Shown: positions 4,708 to 37,278, counted from the stretch's first letter. The stretch: 41,495 nt of DNA from a virus (IMGVR_UViG_3300025889_000258:1-41495), one strand, 5' to 3'. A program made the numbers and translations. The notes: generated by a model from the letters alone, not told the origin.

Positions 4708-5658
4708 ATGACACAAGTAATAACAAATGACGTAAGTGCAATCCAACCAGAACTGTGGAGTACTATGGTTCAAGTTCCTTTGTATAAGTCTCTGGTAGCT
4801 CTTGAAGTTGCGAATATGAGATTGTCAGATACTCTAAAGTATGCTGATACAATTCACGTTCCAAAATTCGGAGACCTAACAGTTGCTACATATACACCTG
4901 GAACAACTATTTCTGCTACAGCTCAAGACTGGTCTTTTGACACTCTAGTTGTATCTGCTTACAAGCACGTTACATTTTACGTTGATGATGCAAAATCATT
5001 AACTACTAATGTTGACCAAGCTCGTGAGTTAGCTACAGAAGCAGCTTATCAACTACGAAATACTATCGACACAGATGTTTTCAAAAATATCACAGGTGCT
5101 GATGGTTTCGTTCCTGCTGATGACGCTGATATTCTAGCTGGAGGTTCAAACGCAAAACCAGTTTCTGCTGGAACTGCAAACATTATTCAAATCTTTGCAG
5201 GTGCTAGAAAAGTTCTTAGAAACAGAAATGTTGAAGAGACAGGTGATTGGTGTGCTATCGTTCCTCCAAAAATCGCTGCTGATATTGAAATCAAAGCAGC
5301 TACAGTTGGATTTAACGTTGCAGACTCAACACTTAGAAATGGTTACGCTGGAGACTTTATGGGCTTCCAAGTCTATGTTTCCAACAACTTACCTACAGGT
5401 AAGTTAACTGCTATCGCCCCTGGTGCTGGTGGAGTAACTGCTACTGGTTTGTCTGCTACTACTTCTATGTCTGTTTACTTTGGAAAGAAAAAAACTATTG
5501 ACGTAGTATTACTACGTGAACCAGTATTAGAAATCCGAAAGAAAGACGACATGATTGGTTCTAACTTTATAACCTGGACTGTTTACGGTTCAGCGGTATT
5601 TACAAAGAATCGCTCAAGAGGTATCAATATGCCGATTGGTTCAGCTTATTATCAATAA
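4708..5658 (+). CDS. Major capsid protein
   Basis: Shell-forming protein, probably HK97 fold. The 316-residue sequence has an N-arm (SAIQPELWSTMVQVPLYKSL), an Ala/Thr/Val-rich beta region, the DQARELATEAAYQLRNTID helix typical of the spine helix of coat proteins, a P-domain-like section with VPPKIAADIE, and a beta-rich C-terminus. AGGGG upstream (4693-4697) is one of few sequences resembling a ribosome site. The gene is richer in C and G at third positions than its neighbours, as expected for the most expressed gene. A large inverted repeat follows. Confidence 0.93.
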   Translation: MTQVITNDVSAIQPELWSTMVQVPLYKSLVALEVANMRLSDTLKYADTIHVPKFGDLTVATYTPGTTISATAQDWSFDTLVVSAYKHVTFYVDDAKSLTTNVDQARELATEAAYQLRNTIDTDVFKNITGADGFVPADDADILAGGSNAKPVSAGTANIIQIFAGARKVLRNRNVEETGDWCAIVPPKIAADIEIKAATVGFNVADSTLRNGYAGDFMGFQVYVSNNLPTGKLTAIAPGAGGVTATGLSATTSMSVYFGKKKTIDVVLLREPVLEIRKKDDMIGSNFITWTVYGSAVFTKNRSRGINMPIGSAYYQ

Positions 5659-5726: not shown

Positions 5727-5960
5727 ATGTTAGAAAAATTTAAGAAATGGAAATTGCGAAGAAAAGCAAGACTAAAACTTATAAGTCAATATGAGTATAT
5801 GAATGAAGTAGATACACTTTTAGAAGAAGATGCTACTGCTAAAATTCTAGTTGGAGGAAGTTCTCAATTTATTGAGCAAGGTCGTAAAAATTTAATAGAA
5901 ATACAAAAGAGACTTGCTGCAAATAAAGCGTTTGTAGAGTTTCTTAAGAAAGTAAAATAA
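5727..5960 (+). CDS. Hypothetical helical protein (77 aa)
   Basis: Not recognised. The N-terminus is very basic (KFKKWKLRRKARLK), followed by two predicted helices around an LVGGSSQFIEQGRKN turn. It lies between the capsid-distal hairpin and the first glycosyltransferase. Minor capsid or head-completion protein is possible by position only. Confidence 0.65.
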   Translation: MLEKFKKWKLRRKARLKLISQYEYMNEVDTLLEEDATAKILVGGSSQFIEQGRKNLIEIQKRLAANKAFVEFLKKVK

Positions 5961-5964
5961 GACT

Positions 5965-7083
5965 ATGAAAATAATGTTTATATTGGATAGCGTTAGAAGT
6001 TATCAAAGTGGTATATGGTGGCATAGAAATGAAACACCTTGCACAGCTCTAGGAAAAAGAGGACACGCTTGTAAACAAATAGCTATTGGAGGAGAAGTGC
6101 CAGAACAATTTATGGAATGGCCTGATACTGTTGTATTTGGTAGAGTTTACCCTACTCAATTTGACCCAGTTAAATTGATGAGAGATTACAAAAAAAGAGG
6201 GAAGAGAGTAATCTATGATTTAGATGATGATATATGGGAAGTGTCTAAAGACAATCCATCTCACTTAGTATCAAATGCTATGAAAGACCAGTACGAAGGT
6301 ATGATTAAAGAAGCAGATGCTGTAGTTACTCCAAGTCCTGTTCTTGCTAAAAAGTTTAAGAAATACTTTAAAAATAAACCTATATTCCTTTGTCCAAATG
6401 GTATTGATTATGATATTTACAGAGAAAGACCACACCAAAATGAAGATACTATTAAAATAGGTTATATGGGTGCTGCTTCTCATTGGAAAGATTTACAACT
6501 AATAGGAAAAGTATTAGCAGAACTTAATAAGAAACACGATTTTCTTTTTACCATTTATGGTCTTACAGGAGAACCAATGGAAGCTGCTATGTATACTTAT
6601 CAAAAAGAACTTCAATATAACTTTCAACCAGAGAAAAATGATTATATGAATTCAGCTCTTGATTTCTATAAACAATTAACTGAAACTCGGTTTTGGCATA
6701 TACCTTTTATGCCACCTGAATTACACCCTAAAACATTATCAATGTGTGATTTAGATATAGGAATTGCACCACTTCACGATACTGAATTTAATAGTGGAAA
6801 ATCTAATGTAAAGTTCTATGAATATGCTTCAGTGGGAACTGTTACTATAGCTTCAGATGTAAAACCTTATAGTGAAGAAGTAAATTACAGAGCAAAAAAT
6901 ACATTTAAAGATTGGTATAATAAATTAGAACGCTTAATAATAGATAAAGATTTTAGAGAAAAAATTCTAAAGAGTCAACGAGAATGGGTTAAGAAAAATC
7001 GTAGTGTAGAAGCTATTGGTCTTGATTGGGAGTTGGCTTGTCAATTACCATCAAATACTAAAGTAAAAAATCAACAAAGATGA
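5965..7083 (+). CDS. GT-B glycosyltransferase, GT4-like
   Basis: Predicted to transfer a sugar from a nucleotide-sugar donor in the cytoplasm. N-terminal Rossmann-like half: MKIMFILDSV and YDLDDDIW (84-91), PNGID (144-148) at the domain hinge. C-terminal half: IGYMGAASHWKD (165-176), typical of the GT4 donor domain, then an IGIAPL segment and a KFYEYASVG motif that includes the acidic residue contacting the donor. 372 residues is usual for the family. ATGA overlap with the next gene indicates coupling. First gene of the phage glycan block; substrate unknown. Confidence 0.88.
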   Translation: MKIMFILDSVRSYQSGIWWHRNETPCTALGKRGHACKQIAIGGEVPEQFMEWPDTVVFGRVYPTQFDPVKLMRDYKKRGKRVIYDLDDDIWEVSKDNPSHLVSNAMKDQYEGMIKEADAVVTPSPVLAKKFKKYFKNKPIFLCPNGIDYDIYRERPHQNEDTIKIGYMGAASHWKDLQLIGKVLAELNKKHDFLFTIYGLTGEPMEAAMYTYQKELQYNFQPEKNDYMNSALDFYKQLTETRFWHIPFMPPELHPKTLSMCDLDIGIAPLHDTEFNSGKSNVKFYEYASVGTVTIASDVKPYSEEVNYRAKNTFKDWYNKLERLIIDKDFREKILKSQREWVKKNRSVEAIGLDWELACQLPSNTKVKNQQR

Positions 7084-7994
7084 ATATAATATTATTTGAC
7101 TTTAATAATATTCTCACAGATGTTGCATTAGAATTACATAATCAAGGACATAATATATTAAGTGGAGAAGTTACTCCAGAAATGGTAAAGAAAGCAGATG
7201 TTATTGTGCTTTGGAATGAAACACCTATGGGTGGTTGGGATAAATGGGTAAAACAACTTAAAGGTAAAAGAACTGTATTACTTCAACATGGAAGACGAGG
7301 AACTTCAAGAATATACCCACCATTTAATGAACCTTTGAAATCAGATGTTATATGTGCGTGGTCAGAGAATGATAGGCAAAGATTACAGAAAGCAAATGTT
7401 TCACCAGAAAAAATTAAAATTACTGGAACAACTATATTTGAACACATAATACCTCGTAAAGAACATAAAGGAATAAATGTTGTATTTAGTCCAGAACATT
7501 GGGATGTAGATGTTGCAGAAAACTTTATTGTTAAAAGCCAATTAGAAAAACTTAAAGGAGTTAATGTAATTACTAAATGTCTTACAGATGAACATACTAT
7601 TGGAATGTATCAAAATCCTGTATGGTCTGATAGAAGATTACCAAACCACATAGATATTTGTGCAGAAGTATTAAGTACAGCTGATGTAGTTGTAGCTGTT
7701 TCAGAATCTACTTTTGAACTCTTAGCTCAATACCTAGATATACCTGTAATTATTGCAGATATATGGACACCAAAGGCTTGTAATGGAGACGAACGATATA
7801 GAGAATACACTAGAGAGTATTCTAATGCTTGCACAAGAGTTAAGGATATTAGTAAAATAAATGATGCAATTTACCACGCCATAAAACACCCAGAACATTT
7901 AAGAGAAGAAAGAAAGAAAATAGTAATAGATGATGGTGGAACTAATATTCAAAACCCTAAACAAGAGATTATAAATGTAATATTAAATAAATGA
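7080..7994 (+). CDS. GT-B-fold sugar or polyol transferase/epimerase-like protein
   Basis: A two-domain alpha/beta protein of 304 residues. Visible: LLQHGRRGTSR (about 87-97), an AWSENDRQRL segment, a KITGTTIFEHI loop near the hinge, and a C-terminal VVVAVSESTFELLAQYLDIPVI, the position where GT-B proteins of the CDP-glycerol transferase and UDP-GlcNAc 2-epimerase groups carry the donor-binding Ser/Glu pattern. If it were a 2-epimerase (NeuC-like) it would supply ManNAc for the NeuB encoded downstream, but I cannot separate the two options by eye. Overlaps both neighbours by 4 bases (ATGA). Confidence 0.6.
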   Translation: MNIILFDFNNILTDVALELHNQGHNILSGEVTPEMVKKADVIVLWNETPMGGWDKWVKQLKGKRTVLLQHGRRGTSRIYPPFNEPLKSDVICAWSENDRQRLQKANVSPEKIKITGTTIFEHIIPRKEHKGINVVFSPEHWDVDVAENFIVKSQLEKLKGVNVITKCLTDEHTIGMYQNPVWSDRRLPNHIDICAEVLSTADVVVAVSESTFELLAQYLDIPVIIADIWTPKACNGDERYREYTREYSNACTRVKDISKINDAIYHAIKHPEHLREERKKIVIDDGGTNIQNPKQEIINVILNK

Positions 7995-8407
7995 GAATCC
8001 CTGAAGGACAAACACCAACAGAAATAGCAGACCTTATTAAAGATGTAATTCAAGATAAGGTAGTATGTGATATTGGTTGTGGTGGTGGTTCATTTATGGT
8101 AGCTCTTTCTAAATATGCAAAGGAAGTTCACGGAATAGAAGAAGAAATAGATTGGGGAATACTAGCTTCAGAAAAAGGATTTAAAGTAATGACAGAGAAT
8201 GTGTTTTCATTTCCATTACCAGAAGCAGACGTCTACTACTGTTGGTCAAAAGATGCTATGGGTATATACTTAAAAGCAAAGTTCGAGGGAACTAAAGGAA
8301 TATTCATATTTGGACACACAGTTAGAAAACCATTATTAGATTTAATTAAAACTCTAAATCACGAAACTAGGGGTGATGAGTTTAAAGTATATATAACAGA
8401 ATTATGA
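7991..8407 (+). CDS. Class I SAM-dependent methyltransferase (small)
   Basis: 138 residues with the SAM-binding motif VVCDIGCGGGSF (about 24-35) and an acidic end to strand 2 (HGIEEE). It is short: the core fold is just complete and there is little room for a separate substrate domain. Its place between a GT-B protein and the peptidase-like gene, with ATGA overlaps on both sides, suggests a sugar or glycan as target. It could also act on a small metabolite. Confidence 0.75.
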   Translation: MRIPEGQTPTEIADLIKDVIQDKVVCDIGCGGGSFMVALSKYAKEVHGIEEEIDWGILASEKGFKVMTENVFSFPLPEADVYYCWSKDAMGIYLKAKFEGTKGIFIFGHTVRKPLLDLIKTLNHETRGDEFKVYITEL

Positions 8408-9717
8408 TTGAACATACAAAAAATATAATAGAAACACTTTATCCAATGAACAGATGTTTACTTGGAGAGGGTTATGATAATGCACTAGAATTTATTGACC
8501 ACTTAATTCCACTTGAGATTTTAGAATTTCCTAGTGGAACTAAAGTAGGTACTTGGACAATACCACAAGAGTGGGTAATTAGAGATGCTTGGATTAAAGA
8601 CCCTGAAGGAAAGAAAATAGCCGACTACAAAAAGAACCCTTTATGTTTAGTAGTAGGTTCAACTCCTCAAAAGTTTCATACAGACTTGAAAGGTTTAAAA
8701 CAGAACTTATACTATTCAGATGAATTTTCAAGTGCTATACCTTATGTCTTTAAATATTATGATGATGACTGGGGTTTTTGTTTTTCCAAAGAACAACTTA
8801 GAGAACCTTTAACTGAAATAGATGATACTTTACCTAGAAATGAAGATGGTTCAATAGCAGTAAAAACACAAGATAAACTTAAACAAGGAAGCTATGAGGT
8901 TCTTATTGATAGTGAATATAAACCAGGAATAATGAAGTTAGGAGTTCATACAATTAAAGGAAAGTCTGACAGAGAGATACTTTTATTTGCACACCTAGAC
9001 CACCCATTCCAAGCTAATGATAATCTCTCTGGAGTAGCTTGTCTTATAGATTTAGCTAGTAGATTAAAAGCAGAACACACTATAAAGATTATATTTTGTC
9101 CTGAAACAATAGGTTCAACTGCTTATGCTCTCACACAAGATTTATCAAAAGTAGATTTTGTTATTGCAATAGATATTTGTGGTAATACTAACTCTATTCT
9201 TTTACAGAAAGCATTTGATGGAGAAGACAGAATAAACAGAGTTGCACATTTAGCAATACATTCTTTCTCTCAAGCATATAGAAAGGGAAACTTTAGAAAT
9301 ACAATAGGCTCAGATGAATACGCTTTCAATGACCCTAAAATTGGTATACCTGGAATACTACTATCTACACATCCATACAAGGAATATCACACAGACCAAG
9401 ATACTCCAGATAAAATAGATTATGAAATGATAGATAAGACAGGAAAAATAATAGAAAAGATAATAGAGATTTATGAGAAAGATTATATTCCTGTTAGAAA
9501 ATTTAAAGGACAGATAATGAGAAGTAAATATAATATTCAATCTCCTAGTCCTCAAATGAATTTATCTTGGGATTATTTAATTTATTCTATTGATGGAAAG
9601 AAAACACTAGCTGAACTTTGTTCTGATTACGGATTAAACTTTGATTATGCCTATGGTATTTTTGAAAAATTATTAAAAGATAAAGTAATAAAAAAAATTA
9701 AAATAAATGGAAAATAA
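8404..9717 (+). CDS. DUF4910-type zinc aminopeptidase-like protein with winged-helix tail
   Basis: 437 residues. Resembles the DUF2172/DUF4910 aminopeptidase-like group, related to M28 peptidases and often found in surface-polysaccharide clusters. Likely metal ligands: FAHLDH (H197), ANDN (D206), PETIGS (E234), AIDICG (D257) and the late EYHTDQDT histidine. An inserted beta domain lies between about 45 and 140; a winged-helix domain ends the protein (about 380-437). Substrate unknown; N-deacylation or peptide trimming of a sugar precursor is more likely than proteolysis given the neighbours. Overlaps 7991-8407 by 4 bases and the next gene by 11. Confidence 0.75.
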   Translation: MIEHTKNIIETLYPMNRCLLGEGYDNALEFIDHLIPLEILEFPSGTKVGTWTIPQEWVIRDAWIKDPEGKKIADYKKNPLCLVVGSTPQKFHTDLKGLKQNLYYSDEFSSAIPYVFKYYDDDWGFCFSKEQLREPLTEIDDTLPRNEDGSIAVKTQDKLKQGSYEVLIDSEYKPGIMKLGVHTIKGKSDREILLFAHLDHPFQANDNLSGVACLIDLASRLKAEHTIKIIFCPETIGSTAYALTQDLSKVDFVIAIDICGNTNSILLQKAFDGEDRINRVAHLAIHSFSQAYRKGNFRNTIGSDEYAFNDPKIGIPGILLSTHPYKEYHTDQDTPDKIDYEMIDKTGKIIEKIIEIYEKDYIPVRKFKGQIMRSKYNIQSPSPQMNLSWDYLIYSIDGKKTLAELCSDYGLNFDYAYGIFEKLLKDKVIKKIKINGK

Positions 9718-9943
9718 AGAAAAAGAAATTGTTGAAATTTTTGCAAAGGAAATGCAAAAGAAAATAGAGTTAAGACATAATCGTTATACTCCACTTGGTT
9801 GGAGAACTATGGATAAAAAAAGAATAATATCTTTACTAAAAGGAGAGTTAGCAGAGCTAGAAGAAGAAGGTGCTGATGTAAAACAAGAAGCTATAGATGT
9901 TGCAAACTACGCTATGTTCCTTTGGGATATGACAGAAAAATAA
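9707..9943 (+). CDS. MazG-like nucleotide pyrophosphohydrolase domain protein
   Basis: 78 residues. The helical core has E-L-A-E-L-E-E-E (about 46-53) and EAIDVANYAMFLWDM (about 61-75), the E-x-x-D pattern that binds Mg2+ in all-alpha NTP pyrophosphatases. The family hydrolyses (d)NTPs to monophosphates; phage members may clean nucleotide pools or lower alarmones. It overlaps the aminopeptidase-like gene by 11 bases. The protein is shorter than usual MazG, so it probably works as a dimer or tetramer. Confidence 0.7.
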   Translation: MENKEKEIVEIFAKEMQKKIELRHNRYTPLGWRTMDKKRIISLLKGELAELEEEGADVKQEAIDVANYAMFLWDMTEK

Positions 9944-9947
9944 ATTA

Positions 9948-9956
9948 TGCTATAAT
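9948..9956 (+). promoter_or_regulatory. Extended -10 promoter
   Basis: TGcTATAAT, with no clear -35 at the usual distance. Predicted start about 9963, 11 bases before the small zinc protein ATG at 9974. It would add transcription of the nonulosonate genes inside the glycan block. Confidence 0.5.
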
Positions 9957-9973
9957 AAGTAAAATAGTTTATT

Positions 9974-10138
9974 ATGAAAAATTTATATTACTTTGAATGT
10001 AAAAATTGTAATATGCAAAAAGGTTCTTTAGAAAAACAAGTTTTCAATTTTGTAAAAAAAATTGTTATACTTTATTACAGGTGTTCTAAATGTAAAAAAA
10101 TTACAAGTCATTCTACAAAATTTATGGGTAGGCCTTAA
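9974..10138 (+). CDS. Small zinc-ribbon protein (54 aa)
   Basis: Not assigned to a family. Two Cys pairs, C-K-N-C (9-12) and C-S-K-C (39-42), spaced as in zinc ribbons, with a hydrophobic stretch between. It follows its own extended -10 box, and its stop codon lies within the loop of a perfect hairpin (10124-10147). The position between MazG-like and NeuA-like genes gives no clear role. Confidence 0.6.
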   Translation: MKNLYYFECKNCNMQKGSLEKQVFNFVKKIVILYYRCSKCKKITSHSTKFMGRP

Positions 10139-10147
10139 CCTACCCAT
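10124..10147 (+). other. Hairpin spanning a stop codon
   Basis: ATGGGTAGG (10124-10132) pairs perfectly with CCTACCCAT (10139-10147) around a six-base loop that contains the TAA stop. The following sequence is AT-rich but has no real T tract, so it is a weak terminator at best and may stabilise the mRNA 3' end or limit read-through into the NeuA-like gene. Confidence 0.55.
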
Positions 10148-10156
10148 ACTTTATAT

Positions 10157-10708
10157 ATGAAAAAAATTTACGCACTTATATTAGCAAAAGGAAATAGTAA
10201 TAGATTAGATAAGAAGAATATTCTTCCTTTTAATGGATTACCTATGTTCTTAAATAATGTAATAAAATGTGTTGATATTTTTGATAAAACATTTGTATCA
10301 TCTGAAGATGAAGATATACTAGATTGGGCAGATTCAAGAGGTGCTATTGCAATTAAAAGACCTAATGAATTGTGTGGTGATACACCTAATATTCCTGTAT
10401 ACAAACACGCCTTACAATTTATGGGAGATGTAGATGCTATAATAGCTGTGCAAGCTAATAGTCCTAATGTAGATAAAGAGTTAATAAAAAGAATTAAAGA
10501 TTTAATGGAAGAATATGAAGAGATAATGACTTGCCATAGAAGTGGTCGTATTTATGGTAGTGTATGGGGAATAAGTATTAACAGATTAAATAATTATAAA
10601 AATATTGCTGATTATTATAATCCACAACCTGATTTAAAAATAGAAGATAGTAGTGTTGATATACATACTAATGCAGATTATATAAAGGCGTTAAAAATAA
10701 ATGAATAA
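10157..10708 (+). CDS. neuA: CMP-nonulosonate (sialic-acid-type) synthetase
   Basis: Predicted to activate a nonulosonic acid with CTP. Signature loop ALILAKGNSNRLDKKNI (residues 6-22) matches the family R-x-G-S-x-R-x-x-x-K-N pattern with K for the usual R. Also present: VSSEDEDILDWA (47-58), a QANSPNV segment where the family has L-Q-P-T-S-P, and VDIHTNADY near the C-terminus (family V-D-I-D-x-x-x-D). At 183 residues it is shorter than the usual 220-230. It overlaps the NeuB gene by 8 bases, a strong functional link. CMP-KDO synthetase is less likely beside NeuB. Confidence 0.82.
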   Translation: MKKIYALILAKGNSNRLDKKNILPFNGLPMFLNNVIKCVDIFDKTFVSSEDEDILDWADSRGAIAIKRPNELCGDTPNIPVYKHALQFMGDVDAIIAVQANSPNVDKELIKRIKDLMEEYEEIMTCHRSGRIYGSVWGISINRLNNYKNIADYYNPQPDLKIEDSSVDIHTNADYIKALKINE

Positions 10709-11405
10709 AAAAGTATTGGTAATAGCAGAGATTGGTCATAACCACATGGGTTATATGAGACACGCTAAATTGCTCATAGATGAGGCTAAAGCGTGTGGTG
10801 CTGATATTGCAAAGTTTCAAGCCTACGATACAGAGAAAATAAAAAAACCTTGGGAGAGTAGGTATTTTGAATTAAAACTTTCAGAGCATACATTTGAGGA
10901 ATTTAAAGAACTAAAAGAATATTGTGATAAAGTTGGTATAGAATTTATGGCTTCAGCTTTTGATTTAGAACATTTTGAATGGCTAGAAAAGTTAGGAGTC
11001 AAGAGACATAAAATAGCAAGTCGTTCCATATATGATACAGAGCTAATTAAAGCTATGGAAAAGACAGGAAAACCAATTATAGCTTCACTAGGAAAACTAG
11101 ATAAAAGAGGAATACCAAAAATTAAAAATGCAGAATACCTTTTTTGTGTTGCTGAATATCCTACATATATGACAGCAGATAATTTTCCAGTAAAATTTGG
11201 AGATAAATATGCTGGATTTTCTGACCATACAATAGGTATGTATTGGGCAAGAGAAGCTGTAAAAAGAGGTGCAACTATTATAGAAAAACACTTTACATTA
11301 AGTAGAGATTTACCTGGACACGACCAAAAAGGTTCAGCAGACCCTACCGAATTAAAAGACTTTGTAACTTATTGCCGACAAAAAGAAAGAGGAATTCAAT
11401 ACTAA
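10701..11405 (+). CDS. neuB: N-acylneuraminate/pseudaminate synthase, catalytic domain only
   Basis: Condenses an N-acetyl-mannosamine-type sugar with phosphoenolpyruvate to make a nonulosonic acid. TIM-barrel motifs: AEIGHNHMG (9-17), AKFQAYD (37-43), HKIASR (103-108), GFSDHT (172-177), IIEKHFTL (193-200) and PGHDQKGS (205-212). All match NeuB/PseI/LegI. The protein stops at 234 residues; family members are about 340 because of a C-terminal SAF (antifreeze-like) domain that closes the partner active site. That domain is missing, and the next gene is a HAD protein, not a split SAF domain. Confidence 0.9.
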   Translation: MNKKVLVIAEIGHNHMGYMRHAKLLIDEAKACGADIAKFQAYDTEKIKKPWESRYFELKLSEHTFEEFKELKEYCDKVGIEFMASAFDLEHFEWLEKLGVKRHKIASRSIYDTELIKAMEKTGKPIIASLGKLDKRGIPKIKNAEYLFCVAEYPTYMTADNFPVKFGDKYAGFSDHTIGMYWAREAVKRGATIIEKHFTLSRDLPGHDQKGSADPTELKDFVTYCRQKERGIQY

Positions 11406-11698
11406 TGAATATATATATAGATATAGACAACACAATATGTAAGACAGAAGGAATGGACTATGAAAATGCTAAACCTTTTAAAGATAGAATTGAAAAACTG
11501 AATAAACTTTCTAAAGACAATATACTTGTATATTATTCTGCTAGAGGAGTCGGTAGTGGAATTAACTATTATAAATTAACTCGCAATCAATTTAAGAAAT
11601 GGGGTGTAAAATATGACCTTATTCTTTTAGAAAAACAACCATTTGATTTATTGATTGATGATAAGGCAATCAATGCCGACACATATTTTAATGGATAA
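11405..11698 (+). CDS. HAD-family phosphatase, capsule-biosynthesis type
   Basis: Small phosphatase with the HAD nucleophile motif at the N-terminus, IYIDIDNTIC (3-12; Asp and acid two residues later), motif II serine in YYSARG, and LLIDDKAI as motif IV. Such proteins of 95-150 residues occur in polysaccharide clusters. It may remove phosphate from a NeuB 9-phosphate product or another sugar phosphate. The chosen start shares one base with the neuB stop (TAATG); an in-frame ATG 33 bases upstream lies inside neuB and is rejected. Confidence 0.8.
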   Translation: MNIYIDIDNTICKTEGMDYENAKPFKDRIEKLNKLSKDNILVYYSARGVGSGINYYKLTRNQFKKWGVKYDLILLEKQPFDLLIDDKAINADTYFNG

Positions 11699-12290
11699 AG
11701 AACATGGAGTAAGTTCAGACGTAATAATAAAAGACTTAAATGATGTTATGTCTGTATTTAAAAAATACAATGTAAGAGCTTTTCTTTCTTATGGTGCTGT
11801 ATTAGGTGCGACTAGAGAAAAAGACTTTATTAAATGGGATGATGATATTGACCTAGATATTATTGATAAAGTAGATATTAAAGTAAGGAAAGCTATAGGT
11901 GTAACATTAGGAGATTTAGGGTTTAAAACACAACCGATAGGTTTTAATGTTTTTGGAAGAATGGAAATGACTGCTATGGGATTAAATGGAGAATGTAGAT
12001 ATGACGGAGATGGTGAAACTGGAATAATTGTTTGTGAGAGAAACTTTAAATTTTCTATTTTCTTTTACAAAGAAGAAGGAGATGAATATGTTTGTACACC
12101 TAAAGTTAATGCTATGAAGTTAATATCAAGTCCTAAAATGTTTTACGTGAAACCTAGTAGCGTAAAATTACGTGGACATACTTATATTACACCAGGACCT
12201 ATAAAAGAGTATTTGACTTATTTATATGGGGATTGGAAGACACCATTAAAAAATAAACACGCACCACAATACTATGACAGACATCAATAA
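11691..12290 (+). CDS. LicD-like nucleotidyl/phosphocholine transferase
   Basis: LicD proteins transfer phosphorylcholine or related phospho-groups onto glycans. The defining block is present: LSYGAVLGATREKDFIKWDD, then DIDLDI (about residues 32-58), with the acidic metal-binding D-D-D-I-D. Total 199 residues, usual for compact LicD domains. The start at 11691 overlaps the HAD gene by 8 bases and keeps the conserved region; an earlier ATG at 11655 lies inside the HAD gene. Acceptor unknown; the nearby glycosyltransferases suggest a phage- or host-surface glycan. Confidence 0.85.
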   Translation: MDKEHGVSSDVIIKDLNDVMSVFKKYNVRAFLSYGAVLGATREKDFIKWDDDIDLDIIDKVDIKVRKAIGVTLGDLGFKTQPIGFNVFGRMEMTAMGLNGECRYDGDGETGIIVCERNFKFSIFFYKEEGDEYVCTPKVNAMKLISSPKMFYVKPSSVKLRGHTYITPGPIKEYLTYLYGDWKTPLKNKHAPQYYDRHQ

Positions 12291-12792
12291 AGATTATTGG
12301 AAAACATTCTATAAGAAAAGTTTAACAGCAAAAGAAAGTTCTTTTGCGAAAGAAGTATTACCTTATATAAAAGGTTCACTTATTGATTTAGGTTGTGGTA
12401 ATTATAGAGATACAAATTACTTTCTTTTTAATGACATTGATGTAGATGGTATTGACGCAGTTCACGGAGATAAAGTTGAGGACTATATAAAGAAAAATAA
12501 AAGTCCTAAAAATGTATATGCTAGGTTCTTTTGGCACTCAATAACAAGAGAATTACAACTAGATATATTAAAGTGGGCTAAAGGTTATATTTTTATAGAA
12601 GCAAGAACTACAGAAGATAAGTTAAAACCAAAGGTATTTAATAACCACGAGAGAAACTTTGTAGATGTTCCACAATTAGTTAAAGATTTAAAAGAAAATG
12701 GATTTAGAATAGTTAAACTAGAGGAAGGAACTGGTTTTTCAAAATTTAAAGGGGAAGACCCTTTTCTCGTTAGAGTGATTGCAAAACGATAA
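12274..12792 (+). CDS. SAM-dependent methyltransferase
   Basis: 172 residues, with SAM motif SLIDLGCGNYRDT (about 35-47) and DGIDAVHGD after strand 2. It overlaps the LicD gene by 17 bases and closes the glycan block. LicD genes are often followed by such methyltransferases, so a role in methylating the same glycan or its phospho-substituent is likely. No DNA-methyltransferase N-P-P-Y or P-C motif is present. Confidence 0.8.
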   Translation: MTDINKDYWKTFYKKSLTAKESSFAKEVLPYIKGSLIDLGCGNYRDTNYFLFNDIDVDGIDAVHGDKVEDYIKKNKSPKNVYARFFWHSITRELQLDILKWAKGYIFIEARTTEDKLKPKVFNNHERNFVDVPQLVKDLKENGFRIVKLEEGTGFSKFKGEDPFLVRVIAKR

Positions 12793-12869: not shown

Positions 12870-13559
12870 ATGAACATAACACAAATTAAAGCAGACATAG
12901 ATTTTCTATGTGGCTCTACTTCAGGGACTTATCCAGATGCCGACAAAATAAGAAATATAAATATACATTACCAAGATACCGCTAGACTTATATGGGAGTC
13001 AGATGGAACTTGGGCTTTTGATGATGGAAATAATACAGACGAAGCTATAGGTTCAAGAACTATTGCAAATGCTTCAGCGACTTATCTTATACCAACAACA
13101 GCTTTACGAGTAAAACAAGTTGAAGTTCAAAATGCAAACGGAGATTGGTTTGTTTTAAAACCTAGAACTTATGAAGATATACACATTTCTCCAGAGGAAT
13201 ATTTAACTGGAACAGGTATGCCTCTTTATTATACATTAGACGGAAATGAAATAAGATTATACCCAGCACCAGGAACAGGCTATACAACAATGTCTTCAGG
13301 TATGAAAGTAAGACTCTCAAGAGCAGTAACAGAATTTCCTGTATCAGCAGCAAGTCAAACTCCAGGGTTTGCTAGTCCTTTTCATAGAACACTTTCTTAT
13401 GGAACAGCAATAGACTTCGTTCAAGACCCAAGACAAAGACAATTTCTTGCAGAACAGAAAAATAGAATGGATAAGGGTTTAACAAGATTTTATCAAAAAC
13501 GACAAGAAGATAATCCTTCTCGCTTAATGCCAAAGAAAAATTGGCGACAATATACATAA
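12870..13559 (+). CDS. Head-tail adaptor protein (T7 gp11 / P22 gp4-like position)
   Basis: 229 residues, mixed helices and beta strands, with YEDIHISPEEY and an LYPAPGTGYTTM loop; the C-terminus is basic (RQEDNPSRLMPKKNWRQYT). The Gly-Asn-Glu-Ile-Arg-Leu-Tyr-Pro pattern is common in tail tubular protein A/adaptor families. It is immediately followed by a beta-rich nozzle-like gene with no gap, the order seen in T7-like podoviruses. Called from context and general pattern rather than a unique motif. Confidence 0.6.
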   Translation: MNITQIKADIDFLCGSTSGTYPDADKIRNINIHYQDTARLIWESDGTWAFDDGNNTDEAIGSRTIANASATYLIPTTALRVKQVEVQNANGDWFVLKPRTYEDIHISPEEYLTGTGMPLYYTLDGNEIRLYPAPGTGYTTMSSGMKVRLSRAVTEFPVSAASQTPGFASPFHRTLSYGTAIDFVQDPRQRQFLAEQKNRMDKGLTRFYQKRQEDNPSRLMPKKNWRQYT

Positions 13560-31209: not shown

Positions 31210-31391
31210 AATTATTTATAGAATGGATTTATTTATCAGTATATATATTCCCCATCTGGTGTTTAACTCATTTTGCAGTTCAATTTACAAAATACTTCGG
31301 AAAGAAAGAAGTTGATTTTTATCAAGAACAATATGTAGGAATATTACTTTATTGGTTTATAGTTTTATTAGTAGTTTATTTACATTTATGA
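31206..31391 (+). CDS. Two-span membrane protein (61 aa)
   Basis: Hydrophobic segments at about 6-28 (WIYLSVYIFPIWCLTHFAV) and 42-60 (VGILLYWFIVLLVVYLHL) around a short charged loop. The start at 31206 is chosen over an in-frame ATG at 31185 because it overlaps the previous stop as ATGA. Its own stop overlaps the methyltransferase start in the same way. Function unknown. Confidence 0.55.
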   Translation: MKLFIEWIYLSVYIFPIWCLTHFAVQFTKYFGKKEVDFYQEQYVGILLYWFIVLLVVYLHL

Positions 31392-32023
31392 AAATATTAA
31401 ATTTATATGCAGGAATAGGAGGAAATCGTAAGCTCTGGGGTGATGAACACGAAATCACAGCAGTAGAACATAATCCTAAAATAGCAAAAATATATCAAGA
31501 TTTCTTTCCTAATGATAAAGTTATTGTAGGAGATGCACATCAGTATCTTTTAGACCATTACGAAGAGTTTGATTTTATTTGGAGTAGTCCACCTTGCCCA
31601 ACACATTCACGAATGAACCTCTTAAGTAATGTTCAAGAAGGTAAAAGTGTTAAGTATCCTGAAATGACTTTATATCAAGAAATACTATATTTAAAGCATT
31701 GGTTTAAGGGAAAGTGGTGTGTTGAAAATGTTATAAGTTACTATGACCCTTTAATACCACCAAACAAGTTAGCAGGACATTATTTTTGGACTAATTTTAT
31801 ATTAAGAGATTTTGTAGGAGAAGATAGAGGAATACTTACATCTTCTAAAAGAAAAGCAACTCTTGATGACAGAATAGATAAAATAGGACTTGATATTAAA
31901 AAATTTAACTTAACAAAAACATTTACAAAAAAAGTAATAAATAATTGTGCAGAACCAGAAGTAGGAAAACATATTTTGGATTTAGCAATTAACCCAATAG
32001 ACTTACAAAGGACAATATTTTAA
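31388..32023 (+). CDS. dcm: DNA cytosine-5 methyltransferase
   Basis: Methylates cytosine in DNA. Motif I LNLYAGIGGNRKLW (4-17), motif IV with the catalytic cysteine SSPPCPTHSR (66-75; C70), motif VI CVENVISYY (111-119; ENV). A late NNCAEPEVGKHI stands where motif X usually is. The protein has only 211 residues, against 300-400 for typical enzymes, so the target-recognition region is very small. ATG at 31388 (ATGA overlap) is preferred to 31352. No restriction enzyme is adjacent: orphan, probably protective. Confidence 0.88.
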   Translation: MKILNLYAGIGGNRKLWGDEHEITAVEHNPKIAKIYQDFFPNDKVIVGDAHQYLLDHYEEFDFIWSSPPCPTHSRMNLLSNVQEGKSVKYPEMTLYQEILYLKHWFKGKWCVENVISYYDPLIPPNKLAGHYFWTNFILRDFVGEDRGILTSSKRKATLDDRIDKIGLDIKKFNLTKTFTKKVINNCAEPEVGKHILDLAINPIDLQRTIF

Positions 32024-35891: not shown

Positions 35892-36440
35892 ATGAGAAAA
35901 ATAAGAACATTGTTTGAAAGAGTAGATAGAAAGATTATTGACCAAATTGCTAGTGGTGTTGATTTAGAGTTATTAAAAGATGCAAAAGCCACCGAAAAAC
36001 TAGACGGAATGAATGTGAGGGTTACTATCCGTAATGGAACTTGTGTTCGTTTAGAGAAAAGACGAAACCCTGATAAGATACAAAAACATAAAGGTATTAT
36101 TGAGCCGTGGTATGTAGATACAGCTATTTCAAGCGAAGATAAGTGGCTTAATGATGCCTTAGCGAACACTGATTTATCACAACTACCTGACGGAGAGTGG
36201 AGTGGAGAAGCTTTAGGAACAAATATACAGGGTAATCCACTTAATCTACCAACGAACAGAATAGTATTTTTTACACTTAACCAAGCTCCTGTATTTGAAA
36301 ATGTGCCTACAACTTTTGAGGAATTGAAAGTTTGGCTACCTGAACAGAAATCAAAGTATGGAAACGATTGTGGAATTGAGGGAATAGTTTGGCACTGCGA
36401 GAACGGAGAAATGTATAAAATTAAAACTAAAGATTTTTAA
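35892..36440 (+). CDS. RNA-ligase-like nucleotidyltransferase
   Basis: 182 residues. Motif I K-x-D-G in ATEKLDGMNVRV (K36 would carry AMP), a VRLEKRRNP segment (about 52-60), GEWSGEALGTNIQGNP (about 109-124) near motif III, EGIVWH as motif IV (about 162-167) and YKIKTKDF as motif V at the very end. Only the adenylation domain is present, smaller than most RNA ligases. It could repair RNA cut by host defences, join DNA ends, or be inactive in sealing. No kinase/phosphatase partner seen. Confidence 0.78.
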   Translation: MRKIRTLFERVDRKIIDQIASGVDLELLKDAKATEKLDGMNVRVTIRNGTCVRLEKRRNPDKIQKHKGIIEPWYVDTAISSEDKWLNDALANTDLSQLPDGEWSGEALGTNIQGNPLNLPTNRIVFFTLNQAPVFENVPTTFEELKVWLPEQKSKYGNDCGIEGIVWHCENGEMYKIKTKDF

Positions 36441-36463: not shown

Positions 36464-36763
36464 ATGAAAGACACAATAAATAACTTAATAAGGGAAGAAA
36501 TCAATAAACTAAGGAATTTAGTTGAGGAGTCTATGTTATTCAATAGCCCAATTATTTACTCAGAAAAAGAAAATAGATTTTTGGAACATAAAGAAAACTG
36601 TCTTGGTGTAGCGACTGGTTGTAATTGTGAAATTAGTAATGTTTATAAAAAAGTATTTATGAAGCAAAGAACACAAAAAACACACTGGTTCTGTAAAATG
36701 TTTTGGCACAAAAGGGGTTTTTGGTGGAATCATTATTGTTATAGATGTAAAAAATATATATGA
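36464..36763 (+). CDS. Hypothetical Cys/Trp-rich protein (99 aa)
   Basis: Not recognised. Amphipathic N-terminal helix, then ENCLGVATGCNCE, and a C-terminal HWFCKMFWHKRGFWWNHYCYRC: probably two zinc sites. Its stop overlaps the N6-methyltransferase ATG (ATGA). Confidence 0.6.
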   Translation: MKDTINNLIREEINKLRNLVEESMLFNSPIIYSEKENRFLEHKENCLGVATGCNCEISNVYKKVFMKQRTQKTHWFCKMFWHKRGFWWNHYCYRCKKYI

Positions 36764-37278
36764 AAATGGATAAAGTAGCAGGAAGTGGAAATGACGAGTT
36801 CTATACTCCAGTTTATGCAATAGAGCCGTTATTAAAATATTTGAAGCCAAAAAGTAAAATCTGGTGTCCTTTTGACACCAAAGAAAGTAACTTTGTTAAA
36901 GTATTAGTAAATGAAGGTCATTATGTATGGTACTCCAGTATATTAACTGGCGGAGATTTTTTTACAAAAGAAGTAAAAGAAGCAGATTATATTATTTCAA
37001 ATCCTCCATACTCACTTAAAGCAGAAGTTTTTGAGAAGTTATTTAAGTTAAGGAAACCTTTTGCTATGTTAGTTGGAGTTGTCGGATTATTTGAAAGCAA
37101 GAAAAGATTTAATATGTTTAAAAACAACGAATTTGAAATAATGTATTTAAGCAAAAGAATTTCTTATTTCAAGAATTATAACGACCCGAAACCAAGTTTG
37201 AACCCACCATTTAGTAGTGTTTATATTACAAGCCAAATACTTCCTAGTCAGATAGTGTTTGAAGAAATTATAAAATAA
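36760..37278 (+). CDS. DNA N6-adenine methyltransferase, phage type
   Basis: 172 residues. NDEFYTP (11-17) is the typical N-terminal pattern of phage Dam-like enzymes, followed by a SAM-binding-type strand (WCPFD), an acidic strand before ADYIISNPPYSL, and catalytic NPPY at 81-84. The late PSLNPPFSSVYI is usual for the family. No cognate restriction enzyme is nearby. With the C5 enzyme at 31388 it gives the phage two different methylations. Confidence 0.88.
   Translation: MKMDKVAGSGNDEFYTPVYAIEPLLKYLKPKSKIWCPFDTKESNFVKVLVNEGHYVWYSSILTGGDFFTKEVKEADYIISNPPYSLKAEVFEKLFKLRKPFAMLVGVVGLFESKKRFNMFKNNEFEIMYLSKRISYFKNYNDPKPSLNPPFSSVYITSQILPSQIVFEEIIK

Follow-up and report, generated by a model that had tools for sequence, protein, structure and literature searches.

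The linear viral contig IMGVR_UViG_3300025889_000258 (41,495 bases, hereafter the window) carries a block of enzyme-like genes that fills positions 5965-12792, with the major capsid gene on its left and an adaptor-like gene on its right. After the capsid gene come a small open reading frame (ORF), two putative glycosyltransferase genes (GT1 and GT2), a methyltransferase-like gene (MT1), DUF4910, two small ORFs, and then NeuA, NeuB, HAD, LicD and a second methyltransferase-like gene (MT2). Most neighbours overlap, by 4 bp for GT1/GT2, GT2/MT1 and MT1/DUF4910, by 11 bp for DUF4910 and the following 78-codon ORF (o78), and, in the right half, by 8 bp for NeuA/NeuB, 1 bp for NeuB/HAD, 8 bp for HAD/LicD and 17 bp for LicD/MT2. 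The original prediction, made from the sequence, of a glycan-gene block joined by 1-17 base overlaps between the capsid and adaptor genes thus agrees with the gene layout. Terminal repeats are absent from the window ends and a circular genome is not supported; the podovirus identity of the virus is plausible.

Within the block, DUF4910, DUF2172, Peptidase_M28, CTP_transf_3, NeuB and LicD were matched above the Pfam cut-offs, which bears out the NeuB, NeuA-like, DUF4910 and LicD assignments proposed earlier. GT1, MT1, MT2 and HAD were supported by sub-cut-off or PHROG matches. GT2 matched none of the families above cut-off in profile searches, and its GT-B call rests on the structure model, which compares with TarL at Z 19.8 and with NeuC at Z 16.8. 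The predicted pair of GT-B proteins, the two methyltransferases and the HAD protein are backed by weaker matches, motifs or a model. The suggested comparison with NeuC gave no support for such a role: GT2 shares the GT-B fold, but Gln (QHGRRGT) is aligned where the 2-epimerase motif HVEAGLR has its catalytic Glu, and the profile match is weak (E 0.005). The DUF4910 protein retains the Zn ligands, with H200, D206 and H329 aligned to His189, Asp195 and His324 of CA_C2195, and the DDDID-type motif of LicD (D50, D52 and D54) is invariant in 18 copies.

Related phages had been proposed as a check for the same block after the capsid gene, and its genes were indeed found there. A capsid-relative scan gave 54 viral contigs and a second scan from distant members gave 80 loci, the contigs being partly shared. 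Among contigs with enough DNA 3' of the capsid gene, some of them near-identical and not all independent, GT1 was present in 60/61, GT2 in 43/44, DUF4910 in 25/26, NeuA in 21/21 and NeuB in 19/19. The capsid-adaptor interval spans 6.3-12.6 kilobases (kb) in the 19 loci having both borders. Since this gene order is repeated in dozens of contigs, the arrangement is not due to chance. An insertion into a podovirus operon had been envisaged; the site is the same in nearly all traceable relatives, but the block is a core element of the phage lineage and not a special insertion of one phage. Among distant relatives, the empty site is seen in L191-L193, where the adaptor-like gene directly follows the capsid gene (gap of less than 80 bases in L191 and L192, about 0.36 kb in L193), and in L184 GT1 is the sole block gene between the two borders. 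Most simply, the block would have expanded at the capsid-adaptor junction, with GT1 as its constant part. Homology of the adaptor to proteins of Pelagibacter phage HTVC104P was not demonstrable with single sequences. A search of 50,697 phage records with the first 25 kb of the window found no near-identical phage, and no DUF4910 match was found in the same records. In one relative (L044:3956-8285), GT1, GT2, DUF4910 and NeuA were matched piecewise, reflecting either sequencing error or decay.

When pairwise protein identities were ranked against those of the capsid protein, the rank correlation (rho) was highest for GT1 (0.86) and DUF4910 (0.79), followed by the adaptor (0.69), portal (0.64), LicD (0.57), TerL (0.49) and GT2 (0.46), and GT1 remained above the portal in every leave-one-out of matched-taxa sets. 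The correlation was not significant for NeuA (0.10), NeuB (0.09), HAD, MT1 and MT2, negatives that are weakened by saturation and small numbers. Furthermore, NeuB is 86-88% identical to that of the window in phages in which identity falls to about 51-59% for the flanking DUF4910 and NeuA (NeuB 86%, DUF4910 51% and NeuA 59% in L058), indicating exchange of NeuB itself. Since NeuA, NeuB, HAD and the methyltransferases do not track the capsid, the sugar-identity genes reassort. From these comparisons, GT1 and DUF4910 are read as an inherited backbone that accompanies the capsid, and NeuA, NeuB, HAD and the methyltransferases as a set that is swapped between phages.

The NeuB of the window is short. 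Its model (predicted local distance difference test, pLDDT, 91) forms a complete barrel and matches NeuB structures at TMq 0.76-0.88, with 6ncs at 0.88. Residues E10, N14, K38, K104, S107, Y153, S174, H176, E195, K196 and H197 are conserved in 12 short NeuBs, and we take them to be the phosphoenolpyruvate- and metal-binding positions of the barrel; where an Asp is usual close to the C-terminus, short NeuBs carry Asp or Asn. The protein stays under the NCBI equivalog cut-offs for NeuB_NnaB (164 vs 399.65 bits) and PseI (132 vs 340.25). The best equivalog for NeuA is PseF (3.2e-14), also below cut-off (53.1 vs 205.7 bits), and the kdsB cut-off is not reached (25.6 vs 155.2 bits). The N-terminal nucleotide motif of NeuA (K11, S14, R16, L17, K20) is invariant in 26 copies. 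A HAD gene occurs in 11/15 short-NeuB blocks vs 0/6 long-NeuB blocks (p 0.004, a statistic that ignores phylogeny); L006, L008, L016/L067, L022, L024 and L029 have, in place of the short form, a long NeuB with the SAF domain. NeuB relatives are widespread in uncultivated phages, 170 having been found; those of L082-L143 often lie in larger phages, and several have NeuA- or GT-A-like genes beside them.

Table 1. Genes of the block and its borders in the window (aa, amino acids; SAM, S-adenosylmethionine)
Feature	Position	Strand	Evidence
Major capsid protein, block anchor, candidate acceptor	4708..5658	+	phrog_267 4.9e-33; 54 relatives in viral contigs
Small basic ORF, 77 aa, capsid-GT1 interval	5727..5960	+	tblastn: present in most related loci
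GT1, GT-B glycosyltransferase, most constant gene of the block	5965..7083	+	Glycos_transf_1 1.4e-5, just below cut-off; phrog_7162 4.8e-35
GT2, GT-B fold transferase, TarL/TagF-like or 2-epimerase-like fold	7080..7994	+	AlphaFold model, pLDDT 91
MT1, short SAM-dependent methyltransferase-like, accessory	7991..8407	+	methyltransferase matches all below cut-off; in 8 of the loci compared
DUF4910/DUF2172 peptidase-like metalloprotein	8404..9717	+	PF16254 1.5e-49 (168.5 bits); PF09940 1e-21; PDB 3k9t 1.9e-45
Small ORF (o78), 78 aa, interrupts block	9707..9943	+	no Pfam match
Small Cys-rich ORF, 54 aa	9974..10138	+	between promoter-like site 9929-9956 and hairpin 10123-10148
NeuA-like cytidylyltransferase, 183 aa	10157..10708	+	CTP_transf_3 (PF02348) 1.5e-10, 41.7 vs cut-off 22.6 bits; PDB 6ifd 2.5e-11
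Short NeuB-like synthase, 234 aa, SAF-less barrel	10701..11405	+	PF03102 7e-47, 160.4 vs cut-off 22.1 bits
Small HAD-type phosphatase-like protein, 97 aa	11405..11698	+	EcbF-BcbF 2e-7, below cut-off; phrog_1238 2.4e-19
LicD-like phosphotransferase-like protein, 199 aa	11691..12290	+	PF04991 1.3e-9, 38.9 vs cut-off 22.6 bits, 33 aa matched
MT2, methyltransferase-like, accessory	12274..12792	+	phrog_29440 8.4e-21; TehB-like 7.5e-4, below cut-off
Head-tail adaptor-like protein, right border	12870..13559	+	order in relatives; phrog_6013 0.034 (weak)

Several relatives add further genes, namely dTDP-sugar (deoxythymidine diphosphate), PseB/PseC-like, radical-SAM, methyltransferase and GT-A genes. 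In L080 (5540-8696), a PseB above cut-off, a PseC-like fragment and an ATP-grasp-like protein precede a short NeuB. PepM-type phosphonate genes (PepM, PEP mutase) were also observed, next to LicD, in capsid operons (L041, L018, L029, L064, L075, L076, L158 and L177): the EDKx5NS motif is present in the PepM of six relatives and L158 and L177 add a PepM match, which makes at least eight, the phosphonate gene set being absent from the window itself. Behind PepM, L041 (13673-16330) encodes a decarboxylase in halves, then a PsrA-type dehydrogenase and a cytidylyltransferase, with LicD alongside; together these are read as the genes for CMP-hydroxyethylphosphonate. The best PDB match of this cytidylyltransferase is 5x3d, listed under a PEP mutase name and representing the Fom1 cytidylyltransferase domain. 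The Fom1 product is CMP-hydroxyethylphosphonate (CMP, cytidine monophosphate; PMC6697681). It is sensible to regard the neighbouring LicD as a putative phosphonate transferase.

Protein families, motifs and gene neighbourhood together give good support to the view that the block makes and attaches a sugar of the acidic ulosonic type, so this part of the sugar route first proposed stands, but the NeuB of the window is not a standard one. The short NeuB would condense phosphoenolpyruvate with a host-supplied sugar to give a nonulosonic-type acid; alternatively, it would use a sugar phosphate, and the product would be dephosphorylated afterwards by the small HAD protein. The NeuA-like enzyme would activate the acid with CMP, and GT1 and GT2 may assemble the glycan on a cytoplasm-made protein, most likely that of the capsid. 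Its tailoring by an amide change, a phospho- or phosphonate group and a methyl could fall to the DUF4910 protein, the LicD-like transferase and the methyltransferases. Exchange of NeuA, NeuB, HAD and methyltransferases would then alter the surface sugar, as bacteria vary their O-antigens. On balance, we slightly favour reading the block as a virion-glycosylation cassette specific to the lineage. For the acceptor we likewise lean, by inference, towards the virion, probably its capsid, rather than the host surface, because of the structural-operon site, the near-universal retention, the tracking of the capsid by GT1, the lack of an exporter-like gene in the window block and the mycobacteriophage precedent. 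A simple hydropathy scan of the window block revealed no transmembrane segments, and the 217 ORFs of related blocks included none resembling a multi-span exporter.

Several observations weigh against this proposal. L191 and L192 carry GT1 beyond the adaptor gene, so that its position is not fixed, and GT1 is the gene nearest to the capsid gene, so that linkage may account for part of the co-divergence; the portal, about 0.9 kb from the capsid gene, nevertheless tracks it less than GT1. The active sites of NeuA and NeuB, whose loss on alignment had been named as a point of refutation, appear partly preserved: the barrel phosphoenolpyruvate and metal residues of NeuB and the nucleotide motif of NeuA are kept, but the window NeuB has no SAF domain, hence no SAF arginine (the match ends at 256 of 329), and shows Ser where a Glu/Asp normally follows the KIAS motif. 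The metal site of NeuA appears altered in the alignment: of the two C-terminal aspartates expected to bind metal, one position has Asp/Glu and the other His or Glu. Genes for the NeuB substrate are missing in the window, so that sialic, pseudaminic and legionaminic acid fit alike. A host exporter could take the glycan to the cell surface.

Remodelling of the host cell surface, with the CMP-sugar and a LicD-type group placed on a host-exported glycan for receptor masking, superinfection exclusion or mimicry, is a rival reading. NeuA/NeuB, LicD and DUF4910 are indeed typical of bacterial surface-glycan loci, several of them with exporters (PMC4000134), and PepM and LicD gene sets are usually aimed at cell surfaces (PMC6697681). 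However, the window block is devoid of an exporter-like gene, lies among structural genes, is retained in nearly all relatives and has a GT1 that tracks the capsid protein, which makes such a role less likely. Moreover, superinfection genes are more likely early and dispensable, an expectation that this block does not suit.

Another rival concerns the sugar and is compatible with either a virion or a host-surface acceptor: the product would differ from the standard nine-carbon acid of the NeuB route, and the short SAF-less NeuB, HAD and the cytidylyltransferase could form a KdsA-KdsC-KdsB-like or NANS-NANP-like route acting on a phosphorylated sugar. The missing SAF domain, the Glu/Asp to Ser change, the association of HAD with short NeuB and the weak match of KdsB models to the cytidylyltransferase speak for it, but the closest matches are NeuB and PseI rather than KdsA, and the short NeuB of L080, found with PseB, implies an unphosphorylated substrate there; we consider such a route possible but rather doubtful. 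Ordinary auxiliary metabolic genes, randomly acquired or decaying, would explain why some enzymes are shorter than the family models and why NeuB-like genes occur in many unrelated phages. This reading is very improbable, since the frames are open, active-site residues are conserved over 31 DUF4910, 26 NeuA and 36 GT1 copies, and retention among relatives is near-universal.

Apart from these questions, the 54-aa ORF (9929-10148 with its flanks) is bordered on one side by a promoter-like site (11 of 12, with TG) and on the other by a two-way hairpin that is strong, and looks like a separate later insertion; matches in the promoter scan were not in excess over shuffles. L003 is one example of a direct overlap between DUF4910 and NeuA, without the two small ORFs that keep them apart in the window. 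Concerning the host, the capsid relative L067, with the block on its contig, belongs to a bacterial genome of 3.0 Mb assembled from a metagenome (isolate CG_2015-01t_44_12), a link given by binning. No 16S was found in this genome, and among 192 related genomes the capsid protein had one weak match besides CG_2015-01t_44_12 itself. Short DNA matches of L067 in related genomes, with a best E of 7.5e-5 across 291 genomes, are probably fortuitous and are not taken for CRISPR (clustered regularly interspaced short palindromic repeats) spacers. Beyond the structural region, the window encodes an RNA ligase-like protein (35892-36440; RLIG1 7.9e-11), and fragment-sized matches to EcoRI-type (36760-37278) and C5-type (31352-32023) DNA methyltransferases possibly represent truncated genes.

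More tentatively, the whole uncultivated lineage might bear a swappable, serotype-like nonulosonic-acid capsid coat, built via the SAF-less NeuB class and in some members capped with a phage-made phosphonate (hydroxyethylphosphonate). Phages are usually pictured as bare protein shells, and a variable sugar coat, if true, would affect host range as well as adsorption and grazing. Relatives with phosphonate modules would, if these are real, make phages a source of carbon-phosphorus compounds, and the compact SAF-less NeuB class offers directly testable chemistry.

NeuB-like genes in uncultivated phages and capsid glycosylation are already known, the latter according to PMC11256854 (citing Freeman 2023); what is new is that a multi-gene cassette is conserved in the capsid operon while its sugar genes reassort, and a limited search of partial literature found no report of a phage NeuB in a capsid operon. 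Che8 and similar mycobacteriophages (Freeman et al. 2023, cited in PMC11256854) resemble the present phage in encoding their own glycosyltransferases; a covalent, capsid-bound glycan is also the reading favoured here. In the Che8-related Maravista, glycosyltransferase genes lie near the 3' end of the genome, whereas here a 6-12 kb route with NeuA, NeuB, DUF4910, LicD and methyltransferases directly follows the capsid gene. Bacterial DUF4910 genes have spsE and spsF as neighbours, along with genes for glycosyltransferases, a methyltransferase and a HAD domain, and a sugar-modifying role has been proposed for them (PMC4000134). Clostridium acetobutylicum CA_C2186-2199 (PMC4000134) shares DUF4910, a NeuB-type synthase, a nucleotidyltransferase, glycosyltransferases, a methyltransferase and HAD with the phage block, but the phage blocks mostly have a SAF-less NeuB, lack an exporter-like gene and reside in the capsid operon. 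With PseB-PseC-PseI-PseF pathways the phage shares relatives of PseI/NeuB and PseF/NeuA, complemented in L080 by PseB and the PseC-like fragment; unlike pseudaminic and legionaminic acid pathways, the window has no precursor genes and its NeuB falls under the equivalog cut-offs. Similarly, PepM, the cytidylyltransferase and LicD are common to phage relatives and to the phosphonate tailoring of cell-surface glycans in bacteria (PMC6697681), but in the relatives, as opposed to the window, this set is phage-encoded and located in the capsid operon.

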